Shown here one piece after another: positions 4,032-28,833 of a DNA stretch of 43,028 nucleotides. The first letter of the stretch is position 1. Each line of letters starts with the position of its first letter. The position numbers and the translations under genes are program-made. The notes under the pieces are model-generated. The model was given only the letters and a program-made list of their open reading frames with translations, did not search any database and was not told the DNA's origin. Where the stretch lies: assembly GCA_023662875.1 (NCBI GenBank), contig JAMPIG010000023.1:1-43028 (forward strand), read 5' to 3'. Source of the stretch: Roseburia sp. (GTDB lineage Bacteria > Bacillota > Clostridia > Lachnospirales > Lachnospiraceae).

Positions 4032-4306
4032 TATAAAAGTCCTCCTTCCATAAGCTGCATCGTGTACTCGTCAATAGCCGCGTTCACGGCCTCCTTCGTC
4101 TGGATCTCCTCAATGCTCTTAAGCATCGCGTATTCGTTCTCGGTGATCTCCCGGCTCTCGCATACGTAGTCGGTATATGCTGCCATGCCGTCCCGCTCCT
4201 CGTGCTCCTGCTCCGTAATGTTCCGGCGCTGGATATAAAGGTTAGGCGCTACAAGCTGCAGCTCCTCCGGCCGGTGATCGCTTCTTTCCTCTGTCCACTG
4301 CTTCAT
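4031..4306 (-). CDS. Hypothetical phage tail-region protein (91 aa)
   Basis: ATG 4306 is preceded by a strong AGGAGG site and lies inside the 3' end of the reverse transcriptase gene (65-base overlap in another frame). The 91-aa soluble product has a variable N-terminus (LQLVAPNLYIQRRNI) and a conserved-looking C-terminal half (YVCESREITENEYAMLKSIE, AIDEYTMQLMEGGLL). Proteins of this kind sit between tail fibres and XkdX in many clostridial phages; function is unknown. It is not avd-like: it is shorter and lacks the four-helix pattern. The arrangement suggests that the DGR cassette sits between the tail fibre and a gene that normally follows it. Confidence 0.65.
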   Translation of the reverse strand: MKQWTEERSDHRPEELQLVAPNLYIQRRNITEQEHEERDGMAAYTDYVCESREITENEYAMLKSIEEIQTKEAVNAAIDEYTMQLMEGGLL

Positions 4307-5477
4307 GGTTCTGCCTCCTATCTAATTTTGAAATAATTGCTTTAAGCCTGCTCAAGCGTATTAAGAAAGGTTTTATATAATCCCGGTAGCAATCGTAAGA
4401 GTCGGTATGCGTAAACCATCCCATATAGCTTAACATGGCTTTTATGTGTTTCGTAAAGTAGCCGCGCCCGGCTTCCCTGGCCCTGTGCATCTTTTTGGCC
4501 AGCCTGGTAGCTGCAAGCATAACGCGCCTCCGGATCGTGGTTCTGTCCCGGAAGAAAAGGAAGCCCATAAAATCAAGGGGCCGCCCTATGGCTTTCCCGT
4601 TGCGCTTTACAAAGTGAAACTTGCAGACCTGGTAAGTGTTCTTCAACTTAAGCCGGAAGCGTCGGCCTATAAATTTCCGGATTTCTATTATTGCCTGGTG
4701 TAGCTTCTTTTTGTTGTCGTCGAATATGGTCATATCGTCCATGTATCGCTCGTACTTATCAAAGCCCAGGATCTTTGTTATAAAATGGTCTAAAGGTTCA
4801 AGTAAATAATTCGCCAGCCACTGGGAAATATAGAAGCCTAAAGGAATACCCTTTTTAAACTCCTGCAGGCAAAGCTGAATAAAGTATAAAAACCACTCAT
4901 CCTTAATCCGGATCCGAAGCTCCCGCAAAAGAATATTTAAGCGTATGCTGTCGTAAAAATGGCGGATGTCAATCTTCGCAAAGTTGCGGATTCCTTTTCC
5001 CTTGCTGAACCAGCGTAAAAGCTGCTTCTTTCCGTAGTGCCCGCCGCGCTTCGGAAAACTCCCGCAAGAAAACGGGTAAGCCGTGGCCATTATAATAGGC
5101 TCCAAAACAAGCACTATTATGTGGTGCAGCCATTGCTCGTGTATCTCCGGCATGTATATTTTCCGGCGTTTCCCGTGTTCCTCTATGATCTTCGGTGTGT
5201 GCCGTTTGGGCTTAAATGCCAGCTCCGGGTGCTCAACTGGGACGCCCGGCGGTTTCGTGTTCTCAATCATGCGCCGCATCGCTGCGACCTCGTTGTCAAG
5301 ATCGGCGTCTATCGCCTGTATTTCCTTCCGTTTCGTTTTGCCTTTACGTAAGTTTTTGTATGCCTTCCGGATCGTTTCCTCCTCAAGCATACGGCGATAC
5401 AAATATTTGTATTGTTTAGCGCCTCCCGGTGGGGCGGCTTCCTCCTCGGCTTTCCGCCATAACTCTTTCCTCCGCAT
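4242..5477 (-). CDS. DGR reverse transcriptase
   Basis: The 411-aa product reverse-transcribes the template-repeat RNA to make mutated cDNA for mutagenic homing. Visible RT motifs in order: KIDIRHFYDSI (first catalytic Asp), GIPLGFYISQWLAN (about residues 211-223; the IPLG...SQ pattern is diagnostic of DGR enzymes), RYMDDM (about 243-248, catalytic YMDD box), KLKNTYQVCKF and PLDFMGFLFF (thumb-proximal motifs). The N-terminal 110 residues are basic and helical. ATG 5477 is preferred over TTG 5483 because TAGGAG lies correctly upstream. The last 22 or so residues are encoded within the start of the next gene in another frame. The gene follows TR directly. Group II intron RTs are excluded: there is no maturase domain and no intron structure. 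Confidence 0.95.
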   Translation of the reverse strand: MRRKELWRKAEEEAAPPGGAKQYKYLYRRMLEEETIRKAYKNLRKGKTKRKEIQAIDADLDNEVAAMRRMIENTKPPGVPVEHPELAFKPKRHTPKIIEEHGKRRKIYMPEIHEQWLHHIIVLVLEPIIMATAYPFSCGSFPKRGGHYGKKQLLRWFSKGKGIRNFAKIDIRHFYDSIRLNILLRELRIRIKDEWFLYFIQLCLQEFKKGIPLGFYISQWLANYLLEPLDHFITKILGFDKYERYMDDMTIFDDNKKKLHQAIIEIRKFIGRRFRLKLKNTYQVCKFHFVKRNGKAIGRPLDFMGFLFFRDRTTIRRRVMLAATRLAKKMHRAREAGRGYFTKHIKAMLSYMGWFTHTDSYDCYRDYIKPFLIRLSRLKAIISKLDRRQNHEAVDRGKKRSPAGGAAACSA

Positions 5478-5483
5478 AAACAA

Positions 5484-5669
5484 ACTCCTATAAGAATATT
5501 TTTTCTTCTATCCTCTACGGACGGCAGGTGCGACCGCTTTACCGCCCGCCCTGTATCAAGTTAATTTACCACTTACCTCTCCAATAATGGCGGTTAAGAC
5601 GTGTTTCAACGTCCAGGGGTGTAGGAAGGGGACCGGCTTTAGGTTTATTCTCCGTTGTGGATAGAATAA
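5484..5669 (-). other. Non-coding DGR spacer between TR and reverse transcriptase
   Basis: About 190 bases with no ORF of useful length. By analogy with characterised DGRs, RNA downstream of TR is needed for cDNA priming, so this probably belongs to the functional template RNA. Inverted segments such as GGCGGTAAAGCGG are visible on the minus strand, but I cannot give a confident fold. No avd gene fits here. Confidence 0.6.
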
Positions 5670-5778
5670 GGCGGCCCCGATGTTCCAGTTCGCGTTCCCG
5701 GCGGTGTTGTTCCAATTACGCGCGCGCGGGCCTCCATTCCGGCCGTTGTTGCAATTACCGAAGCGAAGGGCGACCGCC
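5670..5778 (-). repeat. DGR template repeat (TR)
   Basis: This 109-bp segment is 90% identical (98/109) to 5908-6016 at a constant offset of 238 and without gaps. Differences are at 5683, 5690, 5706, 5707, 5708, 5716, 5733, 5737, 5738, 5747 and 5749. Ten of the eleven are T on the plus strand, that is A in the coding-strand template; TR has 23 such positions. In the frame of the target gene TR carries ten AAC/AAT codons, which cannot give a stop codon by substituting the first two bases. The segment lies between target gene and reverse transcriptase. Confidence 0.96.
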
Positions 5779-5840
5779 CCAGGTGACGCCGGTCCTCTCC
5801 CCTATTTTATTTACGTTTAATTAAAAGCAAATTTTATCTA

Positions 5841-5866
5841 CTGGGGGAATTGCTACGCACCCCCAG
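5841..5866. other. Hairpin/cruciform just downstream of the variable gene
   Basis: CTGGGGG (5841-5847) and CCCCCAG (5860-5866) form a perfect 7-bp inverted repeat with a 12-nt loop, 6 bases after the stop codon of the variable protein. In the Bordetella phage DGR a hairpin just 3' of the variable repeat promotes homing; this one has a comparable position. There is no U-tract on either side, so a terminator role is less likely. Confidence 0.55.
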
Positions 5867-5871
5867 ACCCC

Positions 5872-7131
5872 CTAAGCGGCTACGCCGACAGGTGGTAACA
5901 GAAGAATGGCGGCCCCGATGATCCAGTACGCGTTCCCGGCGGTAGAGTTCCAAGTACGCGCGCGCGGGCCCCCACCCCGGCCGTCGGTGCAATTACCGAA
6001 GCGAAGGGCGACCGCCGTGATCGTCGTCTGGCTGGCATGTCTGTAAAGGCCGTCGCACCCTCCGGTAGAAGTGGAACCCTTATAAGGGGCCACCGGTATG
6101 GAACCATAACCGGGTACGCTCCGGTAAAGGTGGGGATAATTCCACCCGTTACTCTCCGGCCGGTTCTCTACGTTGATCCCGGTATCTGAATAGCCCGCCC
6201 CGGTAACGTCGTAAGCGTAGTTTTTACTTACCTTTACCCGGCCGTTTACTACTACTTCGTAGGGATCCCGCATCCACTGCTGGTAGCTGCCCAGGACGAT
6301 GCTGTGGAAAATCTTATTAAGGGTCTGGCCGTCTGATGTCCCATAAAACTGGCCGCCGCCTACTACGGCGTTCCGCTTTACTCCGTAGGTCGGCTCTAAG
6401 CTGGCGTCGTAGCCGCTCATATTTCCGCACCCGTAGGCCGTCTGCAGCTCCGTGGTCTTTGCGAACATCATAAGCAAGTCAATAATTGTTTCTACAATCG
6501 GCCCGCCTAAAAACTTCGCCCTGCTGCCGAAGGCGTCTATTGCCGTTTTCTGCGCTGCGGTGGCCTTATTGTAATCCGGCTGTACGCCGGAAATACAGCG
6601 CATCTTGTCGCTTACAATGGAACCGTAGAACATGGGCAGCCATACGCCCTCAAGCTCCTTATTATCCGGATCCAGGAAGCCTACGGGCTCGAAGCCGTCC
6701 GCCTTCTCAAACCGGAAAAGGACGTAACGGTCGTCGCCTGCCATGTACTCCCGCTTATAAATCTTCATAAGCCAGGAAAAAGCGCCGCCGTTGTAGCTGG
6801 TGCTCGCAACGTCTGAGGCGCTGCCGTCCTCTTTCTTCGTGTAGTCGCTCTCATCCAGCCTGTAATCCGGGGTACCGTCGGCCTTTACCATGTAAGGCTT
6901 ATTCGCCTTAAGGACCGGGAAGTCCGCCCACCCGTTAAGGCTGAACCCTCCGCCCATCGTTACGGTAAGCGGCGCGTAATCCCTGTTTAATCCGATGTAC
7001 TCGATCCGGCTGCCGGGGGATAAAATATTGTTGTGCTCAATGAAGCCGTAGACCGGCTCCGTAGCAAGCATATTATAAATCTTGTCCAGCGTCTCCTTGT
7101 CTGCAATATAAATCTTTTCTCCTGCTGCCAT
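5872..7131 (-). CDS. DGR variable protein, receptor-binding tail tip (C-type-lectin-like C-terminus)
   Basis: The 419-aa protein ends in the diversified segment. Its last 120 residues (from about PHLYRSVPGYGS through TITAVALRFGNC and WIIGAA) have the Gly/Trp/Arg-rich look of the C-type lectin fold of DGR targets such as Mtd. The variable repeat covers about residues 371-407. Codons changed from AAY in TR encode I, Y, S, T, G, D and T in this copy. Upstream residues 1-290 form a phage-specific tail domain without recognised motifs. The ATG overlaps the stop of the tail-collar fibre gene (TAATG), so both are co-translated and probably assemble together at the fibre tip. The likely role is adhesion to host surface ligands, by family knowledge. 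Confidence 0.88.
   Translation of the reverse strand: MAAGEKIYIADKETLDKIYNMLATEPVYGFIEHNNILSPGSRIEYIGLNRDYAPLTVTMGGGFSLNGWADFPVLKANKPYMVKADGTPDYRLDESDYTKKEDGSASDVASTSYNGGAFSWLMKIYKREYMAGDDRYVLFRFEKADGFEPVGFLDPDNKELEGVWLPMFYGSIVSDKMRCISGVQPDYNKATAAQKTAIDAFGSRAKFLGGPIVETIIDLLMMFAKTTELQTAYGCGNMSGYDASLEPTYGVKRNAVVGGGQFYGTSDGQTLNKIFHSIVLGSYQQWMRDPYEVVVNGRVKVSKNYAYDVTGAGYSDTGINVENRPESNGWNYPHLYRSVPGYGSIPVAPYKGSTSTGGCDGLYRHASQTTITAVALRFGNCTDGRGGGPRARTWNSTAGNAYWIIGAAILLLPPVGVAA
5908..6016 (-). repeat. DGR variable repeat (VR)
   Basis: This is the recipient copy within the tail protein gene. On the coding strand it ends with the invariant GC-rich stretch ATCGGGGCCGCC shared with TR, after which the two sequences diverge completely; that stretch is where an initiation-of-mutagenic-homing element would be expected. 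Three template AAY codons are still unchanged and seven are altered, one of them (AAC to TCT) at all three positions. Confidence 0.95.
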
Positions 7132-20933: not shown

Positions 20934-22472
20934 TTATTCTTCGGACGGGATCTTTACGCCCGGATTCATAACCATGCTGCGGAAGTCTCTTACGGCGATT
21001 CCCCAGTCAAGGTAAATATCCCAAACGAAGCCTAAAGTACCCGGCACCTCCATGCGGCGGACGGTCGGCGTCTCCTGGCCGTTTAAGTAGTCTACCTGGA
21101 TCCCTCTCGCGCCGCTGCCAAACATAAACCACGGGCATACGCCGTCGCCTGCAAGGGCGTTAAGGACGGGATCCTGTACCGTCTTAAGCGGGTAGTTGTA
21201 CAGCGGGTTAATGTCGTTATTGTTGCTTCCTACGACCTGGGCGCTGTGGAAAATAACGCTCAAGTCAAACTCGTAGCCAATCGGCACCACAATAGTCTGC
21301 GGCGTAATGTAGATCGGCTCGTCGAAGTGGTCCTTCTGCTTGCCCATCTTGGTGACCATTGCCTGGATGGAAGCCTGGGAAGGCTTGGAAGCTGTTTTCA
21401 TAATGTTGCTATGCTTATCGCAGAAAAGCTGCAAGCCGTCAAATACTTTTGCATTCTTGAAAAGAATAGTATAGACCTGCTTGTTAATGGTTTTCTTCGC
21501 TGCGGTCGCGTAAAGGCCGGGCACCTCCGTCAAAAAGCCGATATCGTCGTTAATGAACGCCTGGCGCGTCATGCTAAACTGCTTCCCGTAAGTATCAAGC
21601 TTACGCTGAGGCAGGAGCTCCGTTCTCGGCTTGTCCGGCTTGATCTCTCCGTTTTCCGGTACGATCAAGAAGTCCCCAACGCCGCCGATCACGTATTCGT
21701 GGTCCGCCGTCTGCTTAAAGTCCTTCAGGCTGCCCTTTGTGGTGATGGCCTCGAAGGTCGTAGGTACTGCGTTGTAAAGCTGCACAATGCTCTTTCGGAT
21801 CGTGCTGTCAAGGATCGCCGGGAAGGCTGCGGAAGGGTTGTAAAACTGGCGGCTTAATTCGCCGTAAAGCTCGTCCGAGCTCATCCTTAAAAGGGTTCCT
21901 ATGTTCTGGCCTTCTCTGCTCAAGCACTCGATCCCCAGGTCTCTTAAGCTCATAGCTCTAAACTCGTCCGATCCTTCGGTCGGGTTTTCAAGGCGGACTC
22001 CTGCGCGGAGCAGAAGGGCGTCGGTTGCTCTCTGCCGGAAAGTGTCGCCCTCGTCCCTGGTGACCTGTACGTTTGCCGGACTTCCTGTCTTTTTCATCCC
22101 GTCAAGGATGGCAGCGCGGACCTGGTCTATGGTGGCGCCGGTGCGGATGTGCTCCGCCGGATCTACTTCAAACTCGCGGCAAAGGTCAGAAATGCTCTGT
22201 ACCCTCTGGCGCTCCTCCGCCACTGCTCTGGTCGCTGCGTCCTCCTGGCCTGCTGCTCCTGCAGGTGCTCCGGTTCCGGCCGTCTGCTGTCCGGCTGCCG
22301 CCTGGGACTGCTGGCGCTCCTCCGCTTCGATCTCAAGCGTCAGGGCGTCGATCTCTCTCTGCAAGGCATCAAACTGCGCGCTTTCCTCCGCGGTCAGCTC
22401 TCTACCCGCTGCGCCACTTACAAGCGCCTGCTGTGCGGCGATCTTCATGGCTCTCTGCTGTCTCTTGTTCAT
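20934..22472 (-). CDS. Major capsid protein with N-terminal scaffold region
   Basis: The 512-aa product has a long N-terminal helical, Glu/Gln/Ala-rich region (FDALQREIDALTLEIEAEER, then an AAAGQQTAGTGAPAGAAG linker), expected to act as internal scaffold and be removed by the protease, and a C-terminal HK97-fold head domain (KQFSMTRQAFINDDIGFLTE, VPGLYATAAKKTINKQVYTI, VVGSNNNDINPLYNYPLKTV). The ALINDD-type motif recalls Mu gpT-like capsids. Lys/Asn cross-linking residues cannot be assigned. It lies between protease and decoration genes, as expected. Confidence 0.9.
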   Translation of the reverse strand: MNKRQQRAMKIAAQQALVSGAAGRELTAEESAQFDALQREIDALTLEIEAEERQQSQAAAGQQTAGTGAPAGAAGQEDAATRAVAEERQRVQSISDLCREFEVDPAEHIRTGATIDQVRAAILDGMKKTGSPANVQVTRDEGDTFRQRATDALLLRAGVRLENPTEGSDEFRAMSLRDLGIECLSREGQNIGTLLRMSSDELYGELSRQFYNPSAAFPAILDSTIRKSIVQLYNAVPTTFEAITTKGSLKDFKQTADHEYVIGGVGDFLIVPENGEIKPDKPRTELLPQRKLDTYGKQFSMTRQAFINDDIGFLTEVPGLYATAAKKTINKQVYTILFKNAKVFDGLQLFCDKHSNIMKTASKPSQASIQAMVTKMGKQKDHFDEPIYITPQTIVVPIGYEFDLSVIFHSAQVVGSNNNDINPLYNYPLKTVQDPVLNALAGDGVCPWFMFGSGARGIQVDYLNGQETPTVRRMEVPGTLGFVWDIYLDWGIAVRDFRSMVMNPGVKIPSEE

Positions 22473-22487
22473 GGTTTTCTCTACCTC

Positions 22488-23285
22488 CTATAAAATTTTA
22501 TTAAGATTTATTTGAAGCTGCCGCTCTCTTAAGGACGGCGCGCGCTTCTGTTTTTGTCCGTCGTTTGCCTCAAATTCCCGGCCTACTCCGACGGTAGGGT
22601 CTGCCGGTACTGAAACTATGGATATCTCGAAGGGCTCCCATTTCCTTGCAATATCGCAGGGGCCGGTAAAGCGCCCATCCGCGCTTGTCTTTCCCGGCAT
22701 GACCTCCTCTATGCTTTCGATCCGGTACCCAACGGAAACGCCTTTAAGGGTCCCGCTTTTAACCTTCTTGTAAATAACCTCCGAGGCCTCGTCGCTGTCA
22801 AATTCAACCTCCGCGCTACAGCGGCCGTTTTCAAGCCATGCCCGGTTAATCTTCCCCAGGACCTCGTCGCGCTTATGGTTAAAGAGAAGGACTCCTATTT
22901 CGTTAAGGCGGGTAAGATTTACGGCTCCGGGGCCGTGGTCTAAAATCTCAACGCACCAGCCTCTGTCGTATGGCTCCTCGGAAGAAAAAGAAAGAACAAA
23001 TTTACGCTCATTCCCTTCTCCTTCCAGCGCCTTTATCGTGGCGCCTGCGATCTCCCTTGTAAGTGATTTACTTTCCTGCCCCGGTTTCTTTTCCGGTTTC
23101 TCCGGATCCTTCCCCTCCGGCTTGCCCGGATTCTTTCCCTCCGGCTTCTCCTGGGGGTTCTTGTCCTCCGCCGGGGGATTCTTGCCCTGGCTGTCCTTCT
23201 GGTCCTCCTGGGGCTCCTGGGCCGCTCTGTGGCGGATCGTCCGGCTCGTTTGTTTCCGGGCTGAGCTCTTTCGCTCCCTTGTCAT
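22488..23285 (-). CDS. HK97-type prohead protease (U35) with long overprinted N-terminus
   Basis: The 265-aa product has the protease domain from about residue 80 (LSFSSEEPYDRGWCVEILDH, VLLFNHKRDEVLGKINRAWL with the candidate catalytic His, LKGVSVGYRI with the Ser, FEISIVSVPADPTVGVGRE). ATG 23285 has an excellent AGGAGGTG site 7 nt upstream, so the first 72 codons overlap the 3' end of the portal gene in another frame. They encode a Lys/Pro/Glu-rich stretch (repeats of GKNP, EKPEGK). It processes the scaffold part of the capsid protein and matures the head. Confidence 0.85.
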   Translation of the reverse strand: MTRERKSSARKQTSRTIRHRAAQEPQEDQKDSQGKNPPAEDKNPQEKPEGKNPGKPEGKDPEKPEKKPGQESKSLTREIAGATIKALEGEGNERKFVLSFSSEEPYDRGWCVEILDHGPGAVNLTRLNEIGVLLFNHKRDEVLGKINRAWLENGRCSAEVEFDSDEASEVIYKKVKSGTLKGVSVGYRIESIEEVMPGKTSADGRFTGPCDIARKWEPFEISIVSVPADPTVGVGREFEANDGQKQKRAPSLRERQLQINLNKIL

Positions 23286-26899: not shown

Positions 26900-27479
26900 T
26901 GTCCTGGCTCTTTTCTGCCTCCGGTTTTTCTATGGCTCCGGCTACGACGAAGGCCTCAAGCATACGCTTGACTTCTCCGTTCATCTCCTTCTCAATCTTC
27001 CGGGCCTCCAGCGGATCTACGCTGTCCGTTATCATGCTTACAAGCCGCGCCGGTATGCTCAAGGCGAAGCGCTTAAAAACAATAAAAAATTTCTGGTAAT
27101 CAAGCGCGACCTCCTCAATGTCTATATATTTCCCAGCCGCAATCTCGCGGCGCATCCGGTGCAGCTCTCCCTGGGATTCTTTTAAGGCGATCTCCGCCTG
27201 CAGCTTCTGCTCTTTAAGCTCCGCCTCTTTCTCGGACTTCGCCTTGCCGTATGCTTTATCGCTCAAATACTGGATGTATGCCTGTATCGATCTGACAAGG
27301 TCATACCGGCGGCCCTGCCCTGGGACTTCCGTGGTCTTAAGCACTCCCTCCTGTGTGAGCTGCTGAATACGCCGGACCGATACGCCGAAAAACTGTTTTA
27401 ATATTTCAGGCTTTACGTACTGCGCGCCGCCGACCGATGATGTGTCCTGGGTGCTCTCCCTGGTTTCCTCATCTGCCAT
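26892..27479 (-). CDS. terS: Terminase small subunit (Nu1-like)
   Basis: The 195-aa product has an N-terminal winged HTH (KPEILKQFFGVSVRRIQQLT, EGVLKTTEVPGQGRRYDLVR) that binds the packaging site, a long coiled coil (SEKEAELKEQKLQAEIALKE) and a C-terminal part interacting with the large subunit. ATG 27479 is chosen over the longer GTG start at 27488 because AGGAGG is correctly spaced. It overlaps the methyltransferase gene by 11 bases. Nu1-like combination of HTH with coiled coil is characteristic of GpA-type systems. Confidence 0.88.
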   Translation of the reverse strand: MADEETRESTQDTSSVGGAQYVKPEILKQFFGVSVRRIQQLTQEGVLKTTEVPGQGRRYDLVRSIQAYIQYLSDKAYGKAKSEKEAELKEQKLQAEIALKESQGELHRMRREIAAGKYIDIEEVALDYQKFFIVFKRFALSIPARLVSMITDSVDPLEARKIEKEMNGEVKRMLEAFVVAGAIEKPEAEKSQDSG

Positions 27480-28833
27480 AAGCGTCACCTCCTCGTACTC
27501 TTACGGCCTTCCTGCCGGTGTACTCCTCCCAACGGTTTATAATGATGTCGCAATACTTCGGGCTTATCTCCATAAGGTATGCAACGCGGCCCAACTGCTC
27601 CGCCGCGATCAGCGTGGTCCCGGATCCTCCGAAGAAGTCCGCGACAAGCTCCCCGCGCCTGCTGCTGTTTGTCATAAGGCGGCCAACCAGGGCGACCGGC
27701 TTCATGGTCGGATGCATATCGCTCCGCGCCGGTTTCTTCTCAAACTGGACGGAAGTCTTGGCCATAAGCGCTTCCCGGATCTGCTCAATGTATGCGACCA
27801 GGTCGTCTTTCTTCATGGCCTTAAAGTCTATATCATCCTCTATGAAAACCGTATCTTGTGACCGGTCGTCTATGAAGTAGTGGCCTGCGCCTTCCTTCCA
27901 ACCGTAAAGGATCGGCTCATGCCTCCAGTGGTAATCCTGCCGCCCTATGACGAACTGGTTCTTTTCCCAAATAAGAACTTGCCGAAGCTTAAGCCCGGCT
28001 TCCTGGAAGGCCTGGCGGAAAGCAAGCCCTTCTGTGTCGGCGTGGAAAACGTAAAAAGCCGCTCCGGCTTTTGCGACGTCGCAATAGTTACCAAAAACCT
28101 GCAGAAGAAAATCGTAAAAAGCTTCGTCCTCCATCCGGTCATTGGTAATCTCGTTATTTGTCCGGGTGGTGTTCCTCTTATAGCTGTACTCCAGGGCCTT
28201 GTCCTTCGCCTCGTAGTCTACGTTATAGGGCGGGTCTGTGAGTATAAGGTCCGCTTCGCATCCGGCCATAAGGATCCCAACGTCGGAAGCGTCGGCGGCG
28301 TCTCCGCACATGAGCCGGTGCTCCCCCATCTGCCAAATGTCGCCGGGCTGGGTGATGGGCTCCTGCTCCTCCGCCTGCTTCTCGGCCTTCTCTATGTCGT
28401 ACTGGTCATCGTTTGCCTCCTGTGTAAGATCAACTTCCGCGAAAAGCTCCGATAAATCCTGGGTATTAAAACCGGCCGCCATTGTGTCATAACCTGCGCC
28501 CTCAAGCTGAATAAGAAGGCCCATAAGGGTATCTTTTTCAAATTCTCCGCTTATCTGGTTAAGCGCAATATTGGCCGCGATCTCGTCGTTCTTATCGGGT
28601 AAATTCACTATAATGACCTCGGCCTCCTCGTAGCCTAAGTCAAGCATTACGGTGCGGCGCTGGTGGCCGCCGATGATGGTGCCGTCCTCGTTTATAATAA
28701 TGGGATCAATATATCCATGCTTTTCAATGCTGGCGGCCAGCTTCTCATACTCCGGGTCGCCTGGCTTGAGCGCCTTGCGCGGGTTATATTCTGCGGGCTT
28801 AAGCTCTAACAATTTCCGCTTTTCAAGTCTCAT
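27469..28833 (-). CDS. ParB-N/DNA methyltransferase fusion
   Basis: The 454-aa product joins an N-terminal ParB/Srx-like domain (residues about 1-120; DPIIINEDGTIIGGHQRRTV, VNLPDKNDEIAANIALNQIS) to an N4/N6 methyltransferase with DLILTDPPYNVDY (DPPY box near 200) and FFGGSGTTLIAAEQ (SAM-binding motif I near 401). The order motif IV before I is the beta class. Such fusions are common in Firmicutes phages, often near terminase, and modify phage DNA against restriction or mark packaging sites. ATG 28833 follows AAGGAGG. It is the first gene of the late block. It carries an internal copy of the palindrome (28071-28084). The target sequence is unknown. Confidence 0.92.
   Translation of the reverse strand: MRLEKRKLLELKPAEYNPRKALKPGDPEYEKLAASIEKHGYIDPIIINEDGTIIGGHQRRTVMLDLGYEEAEVIIVNLPDKNDEIAANIALNQISGEFEKDTLMGLLIQLEGAGYDTMAAGFNTQDLSELFAEVDLTQEANDDQYDIEKAEKQAEEQEPITQPGDIWQMGEHRLMCGDAADASDVGILMAGCEADLILTDPPYNVDYEAKDKALEYSYKRNTTRTNNEITNDRMEDEAFYDFLLQVFGNYCDVAKAGAAFYVFHADTEGLAFRQAFQEAGLKLRQVLIWEKNQFVIGRQDYHWRHEPILYGWKEGAGHYFIDDRSQDTVFIEDDIDFKAMKKDDLVAYIEQIREALMAKTSVQFEKKPARSDMHPTMKPVALVGRLMTNSSRRGELVADFFGGSGTTLIAAEQLGRVAYLMEISPKYCDIIINRWEEYTGRKAVRVRGGDAYGR
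28071..28084. promoter_or_regulatory. Second copy of the 14-bp palindrome, inside the methyltransferase gene
   Basis: TTGCGACGTCGCAA identical to 1032-1045 and 29035-29048. It lies in coding sequence about 750 bases into the methyltransferase gene, where it could act as an auxiliary operator or roadblock site. Confidence 0.4.

Follow-up and report, generated by a model that had tools for sequence, protein, structure and literature searches.

The window analysed here is one contig of Roseburia sp. (JAMPIG010000023.1, 43,028 bases) from a 3.7-Mb draft genome, and it carries a cassette that is almost certainly a genuine diversity-generating retroelement (DGR) in a phage tail module. DGRs are natural systems of targeted, repeatable hypermutation, and being a DGR is in itself ordinary; what is added here is the assignment of a structured RNA, RT-4, to the spacer between the template repeat (TR) and the reverse transcriptase (RT) gene, and a candidate accessory protein. 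The features are listed in Table 1.

Table 1. Positions of the DGR features in the window.
Feature	Position	Strand	Remark
Acidic ORF, 91 aa	4031..4306	-	PHROG 20201; pI 4.4; overlaps the RT 3′ end
DGR reverse transcriptase, 411 aa	4242..5477	-	counted from ATG 5477; RYMDD, LGFYISQ
3′ strand of proposed closing helix	5506..5513	-	GGAUAGAA; 3′ end of RT-4
RT-4 RNA (Rfam RF03025)	5506..5623	-	full-length match in the TR-RT spacer; 112.3 bits, gathering score 73.5
5′ strand of proposed closing helix	5659..5666	-	UUCUAUCC; just 3′ of TR, outside the Rfam model
TR, template repeat, 109 nt	5670..5778	-	23 adenines; identical in relative L065
GC-rich inverted repeat, candidate target-site hairpin	5841..5866	-	7-bp stem CTGGGGG/CCCCCAG, 12-nt loop
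Variable (target) protein gene, 419 aa	5872..7131	-	predicted C-type-lectin/FGE-like tail protein
VR, variable repeat, 109 nt	5908..6016	-	in frame near the 3′ end of the target gene

TR and the variable repeat (VR) form a direct repeat that is 90% identical, with copies 238 nucleotides (nt) apart from start to start and with the similarity ending at both repeat ends. Read on the minus strand, the two copies align without gaps with 11 mismatches, and 10 of the 23 TR adenines are changed in VR, compared with 1 of the 86 other positions (hypergeometric P = 2.6e-7). VR occupies codons 372-408 of the target gene in frame, and 11 further codons follow it. Eight codons differ between the copies; seven of them are Asn in TR (AAC or AAT) and encode a changed residue in VR, and the eighth difference is synonymous (GGA/GGG). 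A preliminary description of this DNA had given the same repeat coordinates, gapless alignment, number of differences and adenine bias, all of which were reproduced exactly, and had placed VR at the 3′ end of a tail protein gene; the reading frame stands, and the position is more precisely near the end than at it. A conserved LLLPP tail beyond VR, outside the repeat, was observed in all 34 target proteins compared.

Pfam and PDB-sequence searches with the target protein gave nothing useful. A structural prediction, which had been proposed as a check for a C-type lectin fold, yielded a C-type-lectin-like model that superposes best on TaqVP, the solved DGR variable protein of Thermus aquaticus (PDB 5vf4), at 9% sequence identity. 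The RT beside TR, already recognised from its YMDD and IPLG...SQ motifs, has an intact frame with RYMDD and IPLGFYISQ, and it matches Pfam RVT_1 (E 2.6e-14) and the reverse transcriptase family PHROG 1423 (E 4.5e-90); its predicted structure superposes best on the RT of the BPP-1 DGR. As predictions, the folds of both proteins are of the DGR kind. The mechanically called RT ORF spans 4242-5483 from a TTG start, and the ATG at 5477, which is preceded by a sequence resembling a ribosome-binding site, is the likelier start.

Variation was analysed in 85 loci with related RTs, designated here by L numbers; the named genomes among them are mostly of Clostridia and Lachnospiraceae, and many are metagenome-assembled. 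In 75 of the 85 loci, a VR/TR pair was found with TR nearer to the RT and most mismatches at TR adenines; nine of the other ten have at most 505 nt upstream, and the tenth, L086, is from a distant lineage. For site counts, we used the window and 64 loci (65 pairs, without L041, which has a partial pair, the distant loci and the loci without a pair) and removed identical TR and VR pairs, leaving 54 distinct pairs including that of the window. Positions beyond 108 were dropped, because the repeat finder overran the true end in some loci, and most of the T mismatches lay there. Adenine sites were changed at 672 of 1311 (51%) and other bases at 27 of 4521 (0.6%), indicating adenine specificity. 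The rare non-adenine changes favour T (17 of 1124 T sites versus 10 of 3397 C and G sites; Fisher P = 2.9e-5, uncorrected for kinship), with T to G accounting for 16 of the 17; this could reflect a minor error type of the RT or selection at a few shared sites.

TR is constant where VR varies. When 15 pairs of relatives were compared, five showed zero differences in the 767-900 nt upstream of VR, in TR and in the 1200 nt after TR, and VR nevertheless differs within each of them at 9-20 positions, nearly all of which are TR adenines (13 of 13 in L028/L031, 9 of 9 in L030/L031, 15 of 17 in L006/L072, 15 of 18 in L006/L084 and 18 of 20 in L070/L071). These five phage pairs, identical otherwise over about 2 kb, are the outcome of the search for VR variants with a constant TR that the preliminary description had suggested. 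The TR of the window is identical to that of L065 despite flanks that are about 9-10% different, and the VRs differ at 15 of the 23 adenines and at one other site.

Some relatives depart from this arrangement. At L074:1-60, a VR-like sequence stands in the place of TR; over these 60 nt it departs from the window TR at 9 positions, 6 of them at adenines of that TR. The contig starts inside that stretch, which may be either an assembly join at the repeat or an overwritten TR. L119:99-868 keeps a TR-like stretch and the companion ORF described below, its RT frame starts in the C-terminal part (read by eye), and RT-4 and the RT N-terminus are seemingly missing unless the contig is misassembled. 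In some relatives, additional repeats of 75-110 nt are listed.

The TR-RT spacer of the window, in which the preliminary description identified the flanking TR and RT correctly and missed the RNA, matches RT-4 over model positions 1-118. RT-4 is the only family listed for the window, and Phage_DGR (RF03022) was not matched in its spacer. When 52 of the 85 loci were scanned for Rfam families (L087, itself found by RT-4, was not counted, and L056, L058, L061 and L064 were scanned separately, L061 for a second time), RT-4 was located upstream of the RT in 47. It is absent from five loci: the contig of L025 starts at the RT, and in L057, L061, L062 and L063 the RT is just 23-27% identical. In the reverse direction, whole genomes were searched with the RNA as the starting point, and RT-4 turned up in 6 of 299 members of the family and in 3 of 391 of the class. 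These amount to seven distinct places including the window, two of them below the gathering score; each of the seven lies downstream of an A-biased VR/TR pair and upstream of a YMDD frame. In an alignment of 39 TR-spacer RNAs, the 31 pairs of the structure are formed in 96.9% of the cells, compared with 30-44% when slid, a comparison that favours the structure because it was partly drawn from the same alignment. Cells with both sides changed numbered 140, versus 44.4 in shuffles, so the RT-4 stems covary.

Other DGRs carry other Rfam families at this place: RT-18 in LBR48 and MT835666, RT-14 in BalMu-1 and Phage_DGR (104.7 bits) in the Bordetella phage BPP-1, the DGR prototype, whereas the Faecalibacterium phage FP_Epona carries RT-4. 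In searches that started from the RNA, all 3 RT-18 places and 9 of the 12 RT-14 places fell inside A-biased DGRs; the exceptions are two RT-14 places that share a contig, where the pair is weak, and one in a truncated locus. Two RT-14 matches on one contig (L113 and L118) are 593 nt apart, and that stretch also contains exact repeats of 105 and 112 nt spaced 1245 nt.

The BPP-1 spacer folds, recruits the RT-Avd complex and primes complementary DNA (cDNA) synthesis from an internal adenine (PMC12875486). Because of its position and conservation, RT-4 likely does the same, and by this analogy it is most likely the portion of the template RNA to which the RT binds. We assign RT-4 to the spacer of DGR template RNAs, and RT-14 and RT-18 probably belong there likewise. 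That the RNA trailing TR has a conserved structure contacting the RT is already in print (PMC8867640). Our literature search found no printed link between RT-4 and DGRs, nor any mention of RF03025, RF03022, RT-14 RNA or RT-18 RNA in the DGR literature searched; the paper that probably defined RT-4 (Weinberg 2017) lay outside the search.

The Rfam model of RT-4 begins after the linker that follows TR and hence lacks a helix that we propose to close the RNA: the linker contains UUCUAUC, complementary to GAUAGAA at the RT-4 3′ end. The evidence for this helix is mixed. Its six scored pairs are all kept in 36 of the 39 sequences (exceptions L036, L051 and L054), with no covariation inside this clade. 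In BPP-1 and several further lineages, other complementary pairs occupy the same two places, and when these stretches were swapped among 11 DGR lineages, own pairings were on the whole better than swapped ones (permutation p = 0.00035; the stretches were chosen after the result of an earlier helix search was known). Own pairing ranked first in just four of the 11 lineages and third in the window, three lineages (L056, L058 and L061) had no such helix, and the window's top-scoring helix, of whatever kind, did not surpass those of shuffled sequences (p = 0.225). The invariant GAUA at the RT-4 3′ end can alternatively pair with UAUC near the RT ribosome-binding site; the six pairs of this alternative are kept in 27 of the 39 sequences, and for two of them some sequences carry changes in both partners. 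The RNA may thus switch between serving as template and as message. A helix between AUCGG in TR and CCGAU in the spacer, given by RNAalifold, was considered as the priming duplex and rejected, as it showed no covariation and its inner adenine is mutated in 27 of the 54 pairs; therefore, the cDNA start must lie 3′ of this helix, which may itself still form.

The preliminary description had called the element complete. TR, VR, RT and target gene are all there, and a gene for Avd was not detected; this, together with the small acidic ORF at the RT end, had been overlooked. With the Avd model NF033474 (E 0.001), no match was found in the genome of the window or in nine viral records with RT-4. Five of ten bacterial genomes with RT-4 loci gave matches, all at least 17 kb from the cassette by coordinates, a minimum even if both are on the same contig, and 8 of 9 distant DGR records matched as a control. 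A diverged or unrelated accessory protein may act instead of Avd.

The 91-aa ORF is a candidate for such a protein. A homologue lies at the RT end in 49 of 49 RT-4 loci tested (the 50th, L054, ends inside the RT and lacks the ORF), and of 299 genomes, a profile of the ORF picked out exactly the 6 that carry RT-4, at a distance of 1.3-1.5 kb from that RNA. Among 50,697 phage records it matched only the two of FP_Epona, and no homologue was found in the other DGR lineages examined. Comparing its profile with genes that follow the RT in LBR48 and in Arawn gave no useful result. The ORF precedes an XkdX-like gene (by eye in the window; annotated in FP_Epona) and may equally be a tail gene travelling with the module; it was not found in two tail modules with a related baseplate J, of which one lacks an RT match and the other has a weak match.

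DGRs as a class are already published, and so is an Avd-less relative of this cassette. FP_Epona (MG711462) shares the order target gene, TR, RT-4, RT, overlapping small ORF and XkdX with the window, at 65.7% identity in the RT and 60.4% in the small ORF, and its 106-nt VR/TR pair has all 13 mismatches at TR adenines. It is nevertheless another phage with another host (Faecalibacterium prausnitzii), and megablast aligns only 5% of a 20-kb query. Its authors, Cornuault et al., found no Avd and suggested another small protein (PMC5883640). BPP-1 differs from the window in having Avd between VR and TR and in its Phage_DGR spacer.

By analogy with BPP-1, a transcript running from TR through the spacer would serve as template RNA, its 3′ part folding as RT-4 and presumably binding the RT. 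The RT would copy TR into cDNA, priming from the spacer and erring frequently at adenines, and by retrohoming the cDNA would take the place of VR in the tail-protein gene, close to its 3′ end. The seven residues that differ from the TR reading in this copy would lie in the C-type-lectin-like domain, which is probably the tip contacting the host surface and binding the receptor. A wider proposal, which we regard as rather doubtful, is that the cassette represents a DGR lineage that lacks Avd and splits the function of Avd between the RT-4 RNA and a dedicated protein, the small acidic one, RT-4, RT-14 and RT-18 being lineage versions of one RT-binding spacer domain closed by the helix between the TR-adjoining sequence and the spacer end.

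Several observations weigh against a DGR acting in this way. Avd, which is needed in BPP-1, was undetected beside the cassette; the sole non-adenine change between TR and VR in the window, C to T, does not fit the specificity; and the target model has middling confidence over VR (pLDDT 61-83, by tens). Among 61 record pairs with TRs at most two sites apart, 15 showed no VR difference at a TR adenine, although 13 of the 15 come from near-duplicate records with 0-4 differences over 1867-2400 nt, and the remaining two, L034 with L035 and with L080, are uninformative in an ungapped comparison. Published phage DGRs have a GC-rich stem of 7-10 bp with a 4-nt GRNA loop 4-34 bp from VR (PMC3240598). 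The hairpin of the window is 41 nt downstream of VR, beyond that range, and none of 38 clade hairpins has a GRNA loop; in each of the 38 members, a 6-9-bp stem that includes GGGG and is capped by a loop of 4-28 nt is located 39-58 nt downstream of VR. This hairpin may be the lineage's own target-site element or a transcription terminator.

Two 109-nt copies 238 nt apart could by themselves be an ordinary duplicated segment that drifted by general mutation. This explanation is already refuted by the adenine bias across the relatives, in addition to that within the window, and the linked RT with its predicted DGR fold argues against it too. It is very unlikely that the cassette is a decayed relic whose TR/VR differences are old and which no longer works in this phage. 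The window is a single draft contig, and the truncated RT frame of L119 points to decay, or an assembly fault, among the relatives; RT, TR, RT-4 and target gene are, against this, all intact in the window, and the comparison with L065 shows an unchanged TR and an altered VR across diverged flanks.

The place of RT-4 could also reflect nothing except the RT 5′ untranslated region, with RT-4 acting as a leader that controls RT translation outside the template RNA. The GAUA/UAUC pairing beside the RT ribosome-binding site, with its two pairs changing on both sides, is in accordance with such a leader. However, the same place is occupied by Phage_DGR in BPP-1, whose spacer recruits the RT complex and primes cDNA as cited above, and by RT-14 and RT-18 in other DGRs, and the proposed closing helix would tie the RNA to TR. 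We consider an exclusive leader role improbable, whereas leader and template-RNA roles could exist together.

The setting is that of a contractile-tailed phage, in agreement with the earlier view of a myophage and with its DGR interpretation as a whole, which our results support: tail sheath, tape measure, portal, terminase large subunit, baseplate J, Tail_P2_I and tail lysozyme genes are all in the window. Elsewhere in it, PHROG 4523 (major head and protease protein), one gene in that family, is matched by two adjoining ORFs (20934-23285), one corresponding to its C-terminal part and the other to its N-terminal part. A 454-aa protein (27469-28833) matches ParB-like families in its N-terminal part and also DNA methyltransferase families.

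The assignment of the spacer RNA may matter because it suggests a likely function for RT-4, RT-14 and RT-18, Rfam families for which none is listed. Natural phage pairs that differ only in VR within the stretches compared are now identified, and the 39 aligned spacer RNAs with covariation provide material on how Avd-less DGRs start cDNA synthesis.

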